Positions 1,993 to 17,340 of a stretch of 20,386 bases of DNA are shown here, one piece after another; position 1 is the first letter of the stretch, and each line of letters begins with the position of its first letter. The stretch is taken from IMG/VR virus record IMGVR_UViG_3300048672_000211, positions 1-20,386 of that record; one strand, given 5' to 3'. Position numbers and translations under genes: made by a program. This DNA is from a virus. The notes under the pieces were generated by a model that worked only from the letters and a program-made list of their open reading frames with translations, had not been told where the DNA came from and ran no database searches.

Positions 1993-2000
1993 CATAAATA
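1993..2000 (+). promoter_or_regulatory. T4-late-like promoter box for the virion-like gene
   Basis: CATAAATA lies 26 bp before the ATG at 2027, with the predicted start near 2007. It is one mismatch from TATAAATA and forms a divergent pair with the box at 1975-1982. A TATAAT at 2005-2010 could be an alternative -10, but it has no -35 hexamer at 16-18 bp. Confidence 0.45.
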
Positions 2001-2026: not shown

Positions 2027-2995
2027 ATGCGATTAAATTTCACACAAGGTATACTTTCATATCCTGCGATATCTAATATTCAACAATTTCTTGTATATGG
2101 AGCTCAATCAGTCAGTTTATCTACTGATTCGGGGAAAGTTGATGTTGTCTTTGCACATAAGGATGTTAATTACTTATTTACTGAGACCTCCACTGTATCT
2201 AATGCATGGATTAACTTATTAGATTTTGTCGATTATTGGTTGTATTGGGATATTGATGTTAGATCCGGACTTCGGACGTTTGGTGCTACTAACATAGCAC
2301 CCACTTACGGTCCAGTCGCTCCCACCATACTAATCGAAGGATTACATTGGTTTGATACTACTACCAACACTATGTTTGTTTATCACTTAGGAGCTTTCCG
2401 TGTGGTTGTCCGAGTATTTGCGGCTAAGGTAAACACTGGAACGTTTTTCTCGTTAGGTAATAATTCGTTATCTCCGTATGCTGGTTCGCAGGTGGGATTC
2501 GTCGGTAGTGTAGTAGCTGGTAGGATTTTACACGACACCACCAATAAACCAATCAAGAAATCGAGTGGAGCATTCCTAACTACTGAAGATGATGTGTTGG
2601 TACATGGAGTGTCTATTAATTCATTAAAGGTAGATAATATTGCTATAGTGGTTACTGCTGATGAAAATATATCAAAAAATTCAGTAGTGGTATTGTCCTC
2701 TTTTGATCACATTCGCCCTGCGGTATACGCTGACACGGATACTCATGTTGTAGCATTTGCATTGGATGATATGTTAGTAGGAACATCTGGTCCCATTGTA
2801 CTACAGGGAATTATACAAGATCCAACTTGGGTACTACCTACCGTAGGCCAACGCGTGTGGATATCTCCTACCATTCCAGGAGATATTGTCGTCACGAACC
2901 CACATGATACCGCCCCATTAACGTATCCAACTAATATGAGTTCAATAGGGAAAGCACTATCCCCAACTTCGATTTATTTTACTAATACTGGTTAA
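2027..2995 (+). CDS. Putative virion structural protein (fibre- or decoration-like)
   Basis: The product has 322 residues and no recognised catalytic motif. It is rich in beta-forming residues, Thr, Ser and Val, and poor in charge, like phage tail or fibre proteins. Residues 107-132 (HWFDTTTNTMFVYHLGAFRVVVRVFAA) fit a pattern of structural proteins in large phages, W-x-D-(x4)-N-x-M-x-V-Y followed by a V-R-V-F-A-A strand. The C-terminal third (about 200-322) contains repeated short strands such as VVVLSSFDHIRPAV and IVLQGIIQD that suggest a beta-rich attachment module. It has a late-like promoter box and no clear Shine-Dalgarno (leader actaccaat). Its isolated position next to lysozyme fits late expression. 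The structural assignment is an inference from composition and context. Confidence 0.55.
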   Translation: MRLNFTQGILSYPAISNIQQFLVYGAQSVSLSTDSGKVDVVFAHKDVNYLFTETSTVSNAWINLLDFVDYWLYWDIDVRSGLRTFGATNIAPTYGPVAPTILIEGLHWFDTTTNTMFVYHLGAFRVVVRVFAAKVNTGTFFSLGNNSLSPYAGSQVGFVGSVVAGRILHDTTNKPIKKSSGAFLTTEDDVLVHGVSINSLKVDNIAIVVTADENISKNSVVVLSSFDHIRPAVYADTDTHVVAFALDDMLVGTSGPIVLQGIIQDPTWVLPTVGQRVWISPTIPGDIVVTNPHDTAPLTYPTNMSSIGKALSPTSIYFTNTG

Positions 2996-3013: not shown

Positions 3014-3069
3014 TCCTTGTTAATTGGAGTTATTTGATGTATAATAACTCCAATTAATGTTCACAAGGA
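3014..3069 (+). promoter_or_regulatory. Hairpin masking the RBS of the ATP-grasp gene, overlapping its promoter
   Basis: A perfect 15-bp inverted repeat (3020-3034 with 3043-3057, 8-nt loop) is flanked by an outer stem, TCCTTG (3014-3019) with CAAGGA (3064-3069). A 6-nt bulge separates the two stems on the right side. The outer right arm holds the Shine-Dalgarno AAGGA (3065-3069), 6 nt before the ATG at 3076. An RNA reading through from the gene at 2027 would fold and hide the RBS. An RNA from the embedded promoter (start near 3052) would lack the left arm. There is no T-run, so it is not an intrinsic terminator. Confidence 0.7.
3017..3045 (+). promoter_or_regulatory. Sigma70-like promoter of the ATP-grasp gene, inside the inverted repeat
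   Basis: TTGTTA (3017-3022), a 17-bp spacer and a perfect TATAAT (3040-3045). The predicted start near 3052 gives a leader of about 24 nt with AAGGA correctly placed. Because the promoter lies within the inverted repeat, a repressor bound there could also control it. Confidence 0.6.
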
Positions 3070-3075
3070 AATATT

Positions 3076-3927
3076 ATGTTTTGGCGAATACACGAAGCTG
3101 TAATTGGTGAAGATCGAGTAGCGGAAGTCACGCAAATTTTAACTGATATGGGAGATGAGTTGCAATTAGTTCGAGGAGCGACCCATCAATGTAGTCCATA
3201 CCCATTCGAAACTGTTGTTCCTCCTATATATGCAACTCATTTAACTACTATTCAGGATGCTAGACGAGCTCCTTTTTATATAACTACCTTATTTGATTCT
3301 GATCGATATAAGGTGAGCTATTACACGTCGTTATATTCATATGACGTTCCATTTCTCAATCGTGGTGGGGTATATCTTACCACCAAACAAGTATTGAATA
3401 CTAGTTGGATGTATCAATTTTGCCATCGGTTATGGGGAACTAATAAAGTATTCATTCGCCCTAATTCTGGAAATAAATTATTCACGGGGCAAACGGTTAT
3501 TATAGATTCTCAACACGAACAGGAGCTAGCATTCACATTAAAGTCTATGGATGATGATGCTATGATTTTAGTTAATAACCACGTTGAGTTATCCCCAGTT
3601 GAGTGGAGATTTTGGATAATAGATGGAAAGATAGCCACACAAACACCATATAGTTGGGAACTGGAGGATGGGGAATTAGTGGAACATCCTGATTACCAAC
3701 TATCAACCAAAGTGATTAGAGTAGTAGAGCGGGTGGTAGAAGAAGATCGTCAGGTAGATGTAGCATATGTGGTTGATGTTTGTATAGATGATATATCAGG
3801 TGACCCATACATATTAGAAATTAACTGCATTAACACATCTGGGGTGTATAAGGCACCTTTACGCCCATTACTATCAGGATTACGCCAAGCAATTATAACA
3901 ATAGAGGATGATTTAAATGGAATGTGA
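3076..3927 (+). CDS. ATP-grasp domain protein (R2K-like clade)
   Basis: The product has 283 residues. ATP-grasp enzymes join a carboxylate to an amine or thiol using ATP and an acyl-phosphate intermediate; R2K members are frequent in phages and their substrates are mostly unknown. The sequence shows the order expected: an N-terminal lobe, VFIRPNSGNKLFTGQTV (about 125-141) as the nucleotide-binding strand and loop, a central VNNHVELSPVEWRFWIIDGKI (166-186) with the E-x-R pattern, VVDVCIDD (232-239), and the metal-binding YILEINCINTSG (245-256) with E248 and N250. The start at 3076 has AAGGA 6 nt upstream. The 3' end overlaps prs by 11 bp, which suggests translational coupling with it. Substrate cannot be read from the sequence. 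Confidence 0.8.
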   Translation: MFWRIHEAVIGEDRVAEVTQILTDMGDELQLVRGATHQCSPYPFETVVPPIYATHLTTIQDARRAPFYITTLFDSDRYKVSYYTSLYSYDVPFLNRGGVYLTTKQVLNTSWMYQFCHRLWGTNKVFIRPNSGNKLFTGQTVIIDSQHEQELAFTLKSMDDDAMILVNNHVELSPVEWRFWIIDGKIATQTPYSWELEDGELVEHPDYQLSTKVIRVVERVVEEDRQVDVAYVVDVCIDDISGDPYILEINCINTSGVYKAPLRPLLSGLRQAIITIEDDLNGM

Positions 3928-4842: not shown

Positions 4843-4850
4843 TATAAATA
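4843..4850 (+). promoter_or_regulatory. Exact T4-late consensus box TATAAATA
   Basis: TATAAATA lies in the 47-bp gap after prs and 25 bp before the ATG at 4876. The predicted start is near 4857. It is the only perfect match to the T4 late -10 consensus that I found in a gap directly upstream of a same-strand gene. It suggests that the helical unknown at 4876 is a late protein although it sits between early-type genes. Confidence 0.5.
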
Positions 4851-4875: not shown

Positions 4876-5634
4876 ATGTTATTGTGCGAAACTGCTGTAG
4901 ACGTCTTAGGAGCAATTCCTCAAGTAATAAGAATATCCAATAGTCTGGCTGTATTATACGCAGCCACGATCCGGGGACAATTAGAAAAACTATATAGTGA
5001 AAACGAACATAGTGATATGAAGCGAACTACTCGATTTGTAGTTGGTCGGACTAAAGCTAAGTGGTTCACTGAAAATTACTTATCAACCACCCGCCATACT
5101 ACATCGGTACATGGGTTAAAGGCTGCGTTGCGTGTATTATCAGCATCCCCTGAATATCAGTCAGTTCGAAATGAATTAGTACAATTAGCTGCGTTGCAGG
5201 TTAATATGGATAATAAATTTAGACAAGAGCATGAAATTTCATATTCAGGTCACACTAGTACCATTGCTGGTCTACTACCGGTGATTTTGTCTAAAATGGC
5301 GAAGATTACGAAAAACCCACAACAAGCAGATGGATTAAATGCAGCGTCTCGTAAACTATCCACATCTGTTACTGAATTGCAAGCGTTGTGGGATCGGTTG
5401 CACAGCAAATGGGAACAAGAAAATCCAGATGAGTCCAAGCCAACTAAAACCAAGCCAGTAAAAGATGCATCTATTGGTCAACAATTATCACAAGCGGATC
5501 AAATGGTAGCTCAGATTTTATCATCATTGCCTGACAAAAAAGTGGCTCACGAAATCCGTACTAACATATCCAGATCTGACAATAAACTACAGGCATTGCT
5601 GGCTGAATTCACTAAACGTGGAATTAAAATGTAA
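4876..5634 (+). CDS. Hypothetical protein, mostly alpha-helical
   Basis: I do not recognise the family. The product has 252 residues, with long helix-forming stretches (about 1-40, 80-125, 130-180 and 205-252) and a Lys/Pro/Thr-rich linker near 183-198 (NPDESKPTKTKPVKDA) that divides a larger N-terminal part from a C-terminal helical part. There is no signal peptide or clear membrane segment; residues 8-32 are hydrophobic but broken by charged residues. The RBS is weak (GAG 8 nt upstream). An exact late-type box precedes it, so a virion or assembly role is possible but unproven. The downstream MazG-like gene has its own promoter and hairpin. Confidence 0.75.
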   Translation: MLLCETAVDVLGAIPQVIRISNSLAVLYAATIRGQLEKLYSENEHSDMKRTTRFVVGRTKAKWFTENYLSTTRHTTSVHGLKAALRVLSASPEYQSVRNELVQLAALQVNMDNKFRQEHEISYSGHTSTIAGLLPVILSKMAKITKNPQQADGLNAASRKLSTSVTELQALWDRLHSKWEQENPDESKPTKTKPVKDASIGQQLSQADQMVAQILSSLPDKKVAHEIRTNISRSDNKLQALLAEFTKRGIKM

Positions 5635-5641
5635 TCCAATG

Positions 5642-5670
5642 TTGTAACTTTAGTACATTCCTTGTACAAT
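5642..5670 (+). promoter_or_regulatory. Sigma70-like promoter of the MazG-like gene
   Basis: TTGTAA (5642-5647), a 17-bp spacer and TACAAT (5665-5670). The predicted start near 5677 lies in the loop of the inverted repeat 5654-5699. A locally started mRNA would therefore lack the left arm and keep its RBS free. Confidence 0.55.
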
Positions 5671-5699
5671 ATTATTTTTTAATTAATACAAGGAATGTA
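5654..5699 (+). promoter_or_regulatory. Perfect 13-bp inverted repeat masking the RBS of the MazG-like gene
   Basis: TACATTCCTTGTA (5654-5666) and TACAAGGAATGTA (5687-5699) are exact reverse complements, separated by a 20-nt AT-rich loop. The right arm contains the Shine-Dalgarno AAGGA for the ATG at 5701. The left arm overlaps the -10 element. This is the same layout as at 3014-3069 and 16191-16219. It could also be a DNA operator. Confidence 0.7.
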
Positions 5700-5700
5700 T

Positions 5701-6264
5701 ATGTCATTAGATAACTATATCGCTGATGCAGTAAGAACAGAGAGCCAATTAGATACAATCTCTACCAACAAAGAAGTATTATTGGCTGTCCTGCGATTGA
5801 GCATTGCATCTGGTAACTTATTGGATATGGTAAAGAAAGAAATATTCTACGGTAAACCGATTGATCAAACTCGTTGGTGGAATTATCTGTGTGATGCTGA
5901 AACTCAAATGCATGAAATTGAAGATGGTTCATTTGAGGTCCCAGTCCAAGATTGTCCTGAGATTGGTTGTAACACTAGATTGCTACATTCTGCTATTGGA
6001 ATAAGCACAGAAGGAGCCGAATTACTAGAAGCTATGGTATCCCATTTAACAGATGGTACTCCGATTGATGAAGTAAATTTCAGAGAAGAGATTTTCGACA
6101 CTATGTGGTATGGTCTGATTGCACATGATGCAATGCGATCATCTATCGATAAAACTCTTATTGCTGGGTTTAACAAATTAAGAGCGCGATATCCTGATAA
6201 ATTTACATCTGAGGATGCAATTAACCGAGATTTAGATGTAGAGCGAGCTATTTTGGAACAATAG
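5701..6264 (+). CDS. MazG-like nucleotide pyrophosphohydrolase
   Basis: All-alpha NTP pyrophosphohydrolases hydrolyse (d)NTPs or related alarmone-type nucleotides to monophosphates; phage members are often proposed to tune ppGpp or clean up dNTPs. The 187-residue product shows the metal-site pattern in the right order: TEGAELLEAM (103-112, E104 and E107), EEIFDTMWY (129-137, E130 and D133) and then FNKLRARYPDKFTSEDA (157-173), followed by a RDLDVERAIL tail typical of phage MazG-like proteins. The N-terminal 90 residues are an extra helical part. I chose the ATG at 5701 because AAGGA is 6 nt upstream; the in-frame ATG at 5695 lies inside the hairpin arm without an RBS. The substrate is not predictable. 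Confidence 0.85.
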   Translation: MSLDNYIADAVRTESQLDTISTNKEVLLAVLRLSIASGNLLDMVKKEIFYGKPIDQTRWWNYLCDAETQMHEIEDGSFEVPVQDCPEIGCNTRLLHSAIGISTEGAELLEAMVSHLTDGTPIDEVNFREEIFDTMWYGLIAHDAMRSSIDKTLIAGFNKLRARYPDKFTSEDAINRDLDVERAILEQ

Positions 6265-6424: not shown

Positions 6425-6452
6425 CTACAACAAGCAATTCCGCTTGTTGTAG
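6425..6452 (+). promoter_or_regulatory. Strong RNA hairpin in the phoH leader
   Basis: CTACAACAAGC (6425-6435) and GCTTGTTGTAG (6442-6452) form a perfect 11-bp stem with loop AATTCC. No T-run follows, so it is not a normal terminator. It ends 16 nt before the GGAG of phoH and does not cover it. It may stabilise the message or mark a processing site. Confidence 0.6.
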
Positions 6453-7275: not shown

Positions 7276-7318
7276 AACTCAAGAGTTGAGGTGAAAAATC
7301 CAACTCTTGAGTTTTTTT
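7276..7318 (+). terminator. Intrinsic terminator after phoH
   Basis: AACTCAAGAGTTG (7276-7288) pairs with CAACTCTTGAGTT (7301-7313), and the right arm runs into seven T residues (7312-7318). This is a textbook rho-independent terminator. It separates phoH from the Thg1-to-phosphoesterase run. Confidence 0.92.
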
Positions 7319-16227: not shown

Positions 16228-17340
16228 ATGAAATTGACCAAGAAAATGAAAGAATGGCTTATGATTAACGATAAAGAATGGCCAATTAAATGTAAAATGT
16301 GCTATAATGACGTTAAGTGGCAAGCATCGCATGGTAGATTTAGTACTTACTGCTGTAGTATCTGTTATCACGCGGATACTGAGGTATTTGATGTCAGACG
16401 GTTGACTAATTTAGATAGATATGGAACCGAATCTCCACTGAGCTCTCCTATTATCCGGGAAAAGATAAAAGCTACTAATTTAGATAGATATGGACACGAA
16501 AATATTGCTCAAGGGACAAAGAAAGAAAAAGTTACAGTAACCAACATGGAACGATATGGAACTAAATCCCCCCTTAGTTCTCCTATTATTAGAGATAAAC
16601 AAAGGGCAACTAATTTAGAGAGACACGGACACGAATCCCCGTTTGGTTCTGATGTAGTTAAGTCGAAAGTTGCATCTACTAATTTAGAGAGATATGGACA
16701 CAACAACGCTCTTAGTTCTCCTGGTATTCGAGAAAAAGTTAAATCTACTAATTTAGAACGATATGGAACTGAATTTGCTGGTCAGAAGGATATAGTAGAT
16801 GCACTTCCGTTGCTACTAGACTCACATTGGTTATTTGACCAATATATATCACAAAACAAACCATCAACACAAATAGCATATGAACTGGGAGATGTGTATT
16901 ATGGCACCATTATCTCTCACCTACGGAAAGCAGGAATAGAAATTAGAAATACATGCACTAGTTACGCAGCGAATCAATGGCTCGACTCATTAGGAATTAC
17001 AGAAAGAGAATATCAATGGCACCCAACTAATACTCGGTTACGATCAGATGGATACTGCCCAATAACGAATACTATTTATGAATTCCATGGTGATTATTGG
17101 CATGGAAATCCAGCTAATCAAGACCAAGCAAAAATATTCCATGGAGATGTGACCTTGGGAGACAAATACAGAAATACCAAGTTAAGAGAAGAAGAGATTC
17201 TGGCTTTGGGATATAATTTAGTAGTTATGTGGGAAAATGATTGGAGAAATATAACCCATAGAGCGGTAGATGTCCAACCGAGTGCCATCCTATCAACCAA
17301 TACGTCGTCATTGAAGACACGGGAGACTCATGAAAATTAA
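16228..17340 (+). CDS. Homing-endonuclease-like protein with Vsr-like C-terminal nuclease domain and six NLxxYG repeats (copy 2)
   Basis: The product has 370 residues and is a paralogue of the protein at 418-1497. Its N-terminus differs: a compact zinc finger with C22-x2-C25 and C43-x2-C46 replaces the DUF723-like part. Residues 59-182 carry six repeats of (A/S/V)TN(L/M)xRYG, then an HTH-like segment (STQIAYELGDVYYGTIISHLRKAGIEIR), then the nuclease block SDGYCPITNTIYEFHGDYWHG (273-293) and GYNLVVMWEND (328-338). After that the two copies diverge. It lies between the phosphoesterase and the topoisomerase cleavage subunit and overlaps the start of the latter by 11 bp. It has its own promoter and an RBS-masking repeat, as known for T4 I-TevI. 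Free-standing homing is inferred, not shown. Confidence 0.8.
   Translation: MKLTKKMKEWLMINDKEWPIKCKMCYNDVKWQASHGRFSTYCCSICYHADTEVFDVRRLTNLDRYGTESPLSSPIIREKIKATNLDRYGHENIAQGTKKEKVTVTNMERYGTKSPLSSPIIRDKQRATNLERHGHESPFGSDVVKSKVASTNLERYGHNNALSSPGIREKVKSTNLERYGTEFAGQKDIVDALPLLLDSHWLFDQYISQNKPSTQIAYELGDVYYGTIISHLRKAGIEIRNTCTSYAANQWLDSLGITEREYQWHPTNTRLRSDGYCPITNTIYEFHGDYWHGNPANQDQAKIFHGDVTLGDKYRNTKLREEEILALGYNLVVMWENDWRNITHRAVDVQPSAILSTNTSSLKTRETHEN
16402..16773 (+). repeat. In-gene tandem repeats, six units encoding TNLxRYG (copy 2)
   Basis: Six units of about 66-69 bp share a core close to actaatttagatagatatgga. Units 1, 3 and 5 end in a similar (L)SSPxIR(E/D)K motif, while 2 and 4 differ, so the array looks like an alternating two-type repeat. 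Copy 1 at 625-984 has the same unit length and count. Confidence 0.85.

Follow-up and report, generated by a model that had tools for sequence, protein, structure and literature searches.

Fold-back inhibition of the transposase genes of IS10 and IS50 depends on where a transcript originates: impinging transcripts from outside the transposon end include an additional arm by which the ribosome site is hidden, and those started inside lack it. Hairpins that bury a Shine-Dalgarno sequence (SD) are described in the relevant passages of PMC3014915 for the phage T4 genes e, soc, 49 and I-TevI, and those of PMC2988022 add I-TevII, I-TevIII, segB and Aeh1 mobE and present all genes regulated in this way as late genes. 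As these passages describe the gene e type, the SD is paired on RNA started upstream, and a late promoter, TATAAATA, is placed so that its own RNA lacks the 5′ arm.

A different arrangement occurs in the T4 genes denV and regB, where a sigma70-type promoter of the early kind lies inside an SD-burying hairpin. The inverted repeats of these leaders (C/C′ and D/D′) are labelled "pot. transcription terminator" in X04567. No account of them as translational silencers was found in the searchable literature, which covers few subscription papers, and one may exist; the excerpts of PMC2988021 returned by a term search do not mention ribosome-site structures in connection with early promoters.

The locus reported here lies in a 20,386-base virus record, analysed over its whole length and referred to as the window. 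It encodes PhoH, Thg1, thymidylate synthase, an ATP-dependent ligase, DHFR, Prs and a topoisomerase pair, and this gene content makes it a probable fragment of a large T4-superfamily-like phage. Two homing-endonuclease-like genes (phrog_3339; 418-1497 and 16228-17340) contain repeated TNLERYG-type motifs. Searches with the MazG, 4876, Prs and topoisomerase genes found no close relatives of the window. The best relative, IMG/VR record G001 (190 kb), has homologues of gene 4876 (39% identity), MazG (about 50%), Thg1 (46%) and Prs, as well as a gp55-like late sigma factor (30%, E 1e-11). The terminase of G001 is nearest to those of the jumbo phages XacN1 and RAS14/CM1 (about 50%).

The leader of the MazG-like gene

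The gene for a MazG-like pyrophosphatase of 187 aa occupies 5701..6264 on the plus strand (phrog_229, E 1.6e-27; a Pfam search of the gene gave no match), and its start agrees with the homologue alignment. Its leader contains two perfectly complementary 13-nt arms, TACATTCCTTGTA at 5654..5666 and TACAAGGAATGTA at 5687..5699, extended by a flanking G-U pair and separated by a loop of 20 nt (5667-5686). The left arm includes the anti-SD TCCTT, and the right arm holds the SD itself, AAGGA (5690..5694), at a 6-nt spacing from ATG 5701. An in-frame ATG at 5695, also within the right arm, touches the SD and is too close to it for use as a start. The predicted fold reaches -19.1 kcal/mol (z -4.7), and none of 200 shuffles was equally stable. 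The perfect repeat with AAGGA in its right arm, on which the initial annotation was based, is thus confirmed.

A local promoter, TTGTAA (5642..5647; 4/6 to TTGACA) and TACAAT (5665..5670) with a 17-nt spacer, overlaps the left arm, most of which falls within the spacer. RNA from it would therefore begin in the loop, at about 5677, and lack the left arm; as a prediction, this bears out the earlier proposal that RNA starts inside the loop. In predicted folds, opening the SD costs 13.7 kcal/mol on RNA reading through from upstream and 1.2 kcal/mol on locally started RNA. Sigma70-like matches are not in overall excess in the window (64 vs 81.6 in shuffles), so the hexamers say little by themselves, and the evidence lies in their place inside the hairpin.

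The gene upstream, of unknown function (252 aa; 4876..5634, plus strand), is preceded at 4843..4850 by a T4-late-type promoter box, TATAAATA. The claim that this gene alone has a perfect same-strand box in front of it was upheld: the only other copy in the window, at 394-401, is on the minus strand. In the window and G001 together, 30 of 43 copies of TATAAATA are followed within 60 nt by the start of a gene on the same strand, where 1.5 would be expected, which makes it a credible late promoter in this lineage.

We consider it likely, at a probability of roughly 80%, that the MazG leader is a hairpin that silences read-through RNA and so makes translation depend on the class of promoter behind each RNA. 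RNA that arrives from upstream (the TATAAATA promoter of gene 4876 being one possible source) would contain both arms, fold, hide the MazG SD and go untranslated, while RNA made from the MazG-like gene's sigma70-like promoter would lack the left arm, having begun in the loop, and be translated. The most likely function would be translation from the gene's own early-type transcripts only, with silence on read-through RNA. That read-through RNA is perhaps late RNA, in which case an early-type gene behind a late-type gene would be silent on late RNA. Which transcripts are made, when, by which form of polymerase and with what translation is here deduced from promoter motifs and folds.

In its predicted folds and predicted RNA start, the leader resembles the gene e type as described in the passages cited, both in the pairing of the SD on upstream-started RNA and in a promoter placed to omit the 5′ arm. 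However, the freeing promoter there is late, whereas neither an ATAAATA box nor TATAAATA is found inside either window hairpin, which carry sigma70-like hexamers instead. The MazG hairpin, if it works as modelled, is therefore a variant of the gene e type with a sigma70-like promoter rather than a member of it. The closest match in layout is denV/regB: as in those leaders, a sigma70-type promoter sits inside an SD-burying hairpin with the anti-SD between the -35 box and the RNA start, although the T4 -35 boxes (GTTTAC) differ from that of the window. The extra arm confined to outside transcripts is also shared with IS10/IS50, but the gene here is a MazG-like phage gene in an operon-like run and not a transposase gene at a transposon end.

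SD-burying hairpins serve in other systems as translational switches that are part of the functional mRNA and are opened by a ligand, a protein or temperature, and the AU-rich stem of the MazG leader would suit such a role. We regard this as unlikely, since the predicted RNA start strips the left arm from local RNA and a search of the window against Rfam 15 gave 0 matches at gathering score. Still less likely is a transcription terminator for the upstream gene. The hairpin does lie 19 nt past the upstream stop codon, and the X04567 labels give the T4 repeats that role; yet the right arm, which coincides with the SD, is followed by no T run, the G+C-rich stem and T run of a terminator are lacking, and the hairpin was not listed by a terminator scan. 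Elsewhere in the window, a strong hairpin with a T run before Thg1 (7276-7313) is an apparent intrinsic terminator, and an 11-nt-arm hairpin before PhoH (6425-6452) leaves the SD uncovered.

A second copy of the layout and the genes upstream

Read-through silencing by the same layout would also control an ATP-grasp (R2K) gene at 3076-3927 on the plus strand. Its leader (3014-3069) has an outer left arm, TCCTTGT (3014..3020), an inner 14-bp stem-loop (3021..3056, in which 3021-3034 pairs with 3043-3056) and a right arm, ACAAGGA (3063..3069), with the SD of the gene; the promoter TTGTTA-17-TATAAT spans 3017..3045. The fold of -25.6 kcal/mol (z -5.8) was matched by 0 of 200 shuffles, and the cost of opening the SD falls from 7.3 to 0.0 kcal/mol once RNA upstream of the predicted start is removed. 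A pattern search verified that the arms CCTTGT and ACAAGGA recur here: CCTTGT-N15..45-ACAAGG has two occurrences in the window (0.01 expected), and these coincide exactly with the two structures. The description of the two as the same switch holds for the layout and not for the sequences, which are unrelated apart from CCTTGT/ACAAGG.

These shared half-sites, and the fact that a -10 box within an inverted repeat is a typical operator feature, could point to a DNA operator at which the arms bind a repressor or activator and cover the SD only by coincidence. Although this is the least improbable of the alternatives, its probability is small. The half-sites are 22 nt apart in one copy and 42 nt in the other, the hairpins of G001 have unrelated arm sequences and cover the SD all the same, and in denV leaders the pairing to the SD is kept while the arm sequences change.

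The gene immediately upstream of each copy has a late-type box, which for the second copy is CATAAATA at 1993..2000 (plus strand), before the gene at 2027-2995 (plus strand). The upstream stop codons are 19 nt (MazG copy) and 18 nt (second copy) from the left arms, so a terminating ribosome would probably melt neither hairpin. A similar case is found at the orthologous place in G001, 3′ of its gene-4876 homologue, where CCTTAATA..TATTAAGG surrounds TTGACA-17-TATAAT before an HNH gene whose SD costs 6.5 kcal/mol to open; here too the gene immediately upstream has a late-type box. The counts no more than suggest a position of sigma70-type hairpin genes behind late-type ones (5/10 vs 2/16, p 0.05). 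A phage lysozyme gene lies on the minus strand at 1457-1951 (Pfam E 1.5e-11), with GATAAATA at 1982, 31 nt before the start of the long ORF.

Hairpins and promoters across phage genomes

The initial annotation proposed a genome-wide comparison with shuffled sequence, and its outcome was favourable. At an SD opening energy of at least 10 kcal/mol, hairpins cover 1/18 genes of the window (0.05 in shuffles), 6/146 of G001 (0.35), 7/102 of T4 (0.2) and 16/2333 of other phage contigs (6.67), which may include distant kin of the window's phage. Perfect arms of at least 8 nt over the SD give a like picture: 1/18 (0.1) in the window, 7/146 (0.3) in G001, 2/103 (0.6) in the first 100 kb of T4 and 9/2343 (8.3) in the other contigs. 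The excess in the window itself comes from two genes. Since the excess is found in the window, G001 and T4 and is far smaller in the other contigs, SD-burying hairpins are a trait of the window lineage and T4 that phage DNA in general shows much more weakly. The earlier argument for selection is supported by this excess and, with the SD freed on predicted local RNA, so is the reading as a switch.

Of the T4 genes already known for such hairpins, e, 49 and I-TevII were picked up by the scan. Gene starts came from a simple caller biased toward starts with an SD, and 11 of 2610 genes with unreadable or short leaders were dropped. Hairpin counts exclude L001-L005, L027, L032 and L089, which duplicate other loci or G001 or were already covered; L002-L004 overlap L037, L040 and L050. 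An earlier measure, an SD pairing probability of >0.9, proved too loose in AT-rich DNA (G001 17 vs 14.2 in shuffles, T4 18 vs 9.8), and SD opening energy was used in its place. At a cut of at least 7 kcal/mol, chosen in the knowledge that the second window copy scores 7.3, hairpins exceed shuffles in whole T4 (18/169 vs 5.0), XacN1 (20/279 vs 8.2) and PA5oct (5/209 vs 2.5), and show no excess in two of the four jumbo phages, RAS14 (6/278 vs 6.5) and G002 (4/314 vs 6.0). The single strongest hairpins of RAS14 and G002 nonetheless carry an ATAAATA box.

Promoters were scored as sigma70-like or ATAAATA with an RNA start 4-30 nt before the SD. This rule was set after a looser one (8-60 nt) had shown no clear association in G001 (7/11 hairpin vs 56/118 unstructured leaders), so the p values are post hoc. 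With it, promoters are found in 13/14 hairpin leaders of the window and G001 and in 46/133 unstructured ones (p 3e-5, post hoc), and in 13/13 and 34/69, respectively, where only intergenic gaps of at least 40 nt are considered. The corresponding figures are 8/12 vs 13/79 in T4 and 5/5 vs 24/92 in PA5oct; no association was seen in XacN1 (5/14 vs 36/113), and that in other phage contigs was not significant (10/72 vs 229/1913).

In G001, hairpin genes with ATAAATA include the terminase, a PAAR/CHAP protein and an unknown protein, while among the genes with sigma70-like boxes are three homing endonucleases and also Thg1, whose arm is shorter. Homing endonucleases are likewise among the hairpin genes of T4 in the passages cited. 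Two of the three in G001 (L016:17331 and L016:15738, minus strand) have the same hairpin, with 15-nt arms and TATAAT inside, and these identical copies represent one event, not two; the third (L016, 12213) has a hairpin of its own. In the leader of a minus-strand gene of L015, the right arm appears to cover the start codon and not the SD, and CATAAATA lies in the left arm.

The nearest MazG homologue, that of G001 (L005:12122, about 50% identical), has a sigma70-like promoter in its leader without such a hairpin, so conservation of the gene does not extend to the switch; inspection by eye of the MazG leaders of L002 and L004 found nothing comparable. A chance palindrome in AT-rich intergenic DNA would fit that absence, and promoter-like hexamers are common. 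Chance is nevertheless the least probable explanation and a very improbable one, given the lineage-wide excess and two folds that each beat 200/200 shuffles. Arms of 13 nt with loops of 4-60 nt, of which the window has three (at about 3020, 5654 and 7276), occurred at all in only 3/200 whole-window shuffles.

Early-type genes of T4 and possible promoter-class-locked translation

Silencing of read-through RNA could extend well beyond the MazG-like gene. Phages keep early and late genes in long same-strand runs between which transcription leaks, and an arm hidden in a promoter would be a compact block on translation at the wrong time that needs no terminator. The textbook version concerns late genes only; a sigma70 version in early-type genes, as in the denV leaders, would make the rule two-way. 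At slightly less than even odds, we suggest as a single reading that T4-like phages and some jumbo phages lock translation to promoter class as a general device, for early and late genes alike. The anti-SD would be written into the promoter, either in the spacer or between the -10 box and +1, and only RNA of the gene's own temporal class would be translated; early genes would be locked against late read-through and late genes against early. T4 denV and regB would use it and, by prediction, modB, nrdC.8, motB.2 and alc. If this is true, an operon-style reading of phage RNA-seq can overstate expression.

The T4 scan also returned regB, denV, modB, nrdC.8 and motB.2, with GTTTAC...TATAAT-like promoters that we take, by motif and recall, to be early. 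Early-type genes whose SD is buried in a promoter-containing hairpin are denV (L026:15355), regB (L026:12740), modB (L025:13130), nrdC.8 (L026:3885), motB.2 (L025:8161) and alc (L169:36278). For regB, the hairpin is present at at least 7 kcal/mol in 6/9 leaders and absent at that cut in those of RB49 and Klebsiella phage kv_tblp2.

In denV, the SD is buried at at least 7 kcal/mol in 32 of 37 distinct T-even-like leaders with an SD (3.1 expected) and at at least 10 kcal/mol in 30 of the 37; among distant denV leaders (at most 47% identity), the hairpin is found in 1 of 12 with an SD. The anti-SD lies mostly in one of two places relative to the -35 box: 2-6 nt downstream or, immediately ahead of the RNA start, about 26-30 nt downstream. 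A few leaders whose -35 boxes are ambiguous fit neither. Both places are absent from local RNA, as predicted by selection for silencing of read-through RNA and not by an operator.
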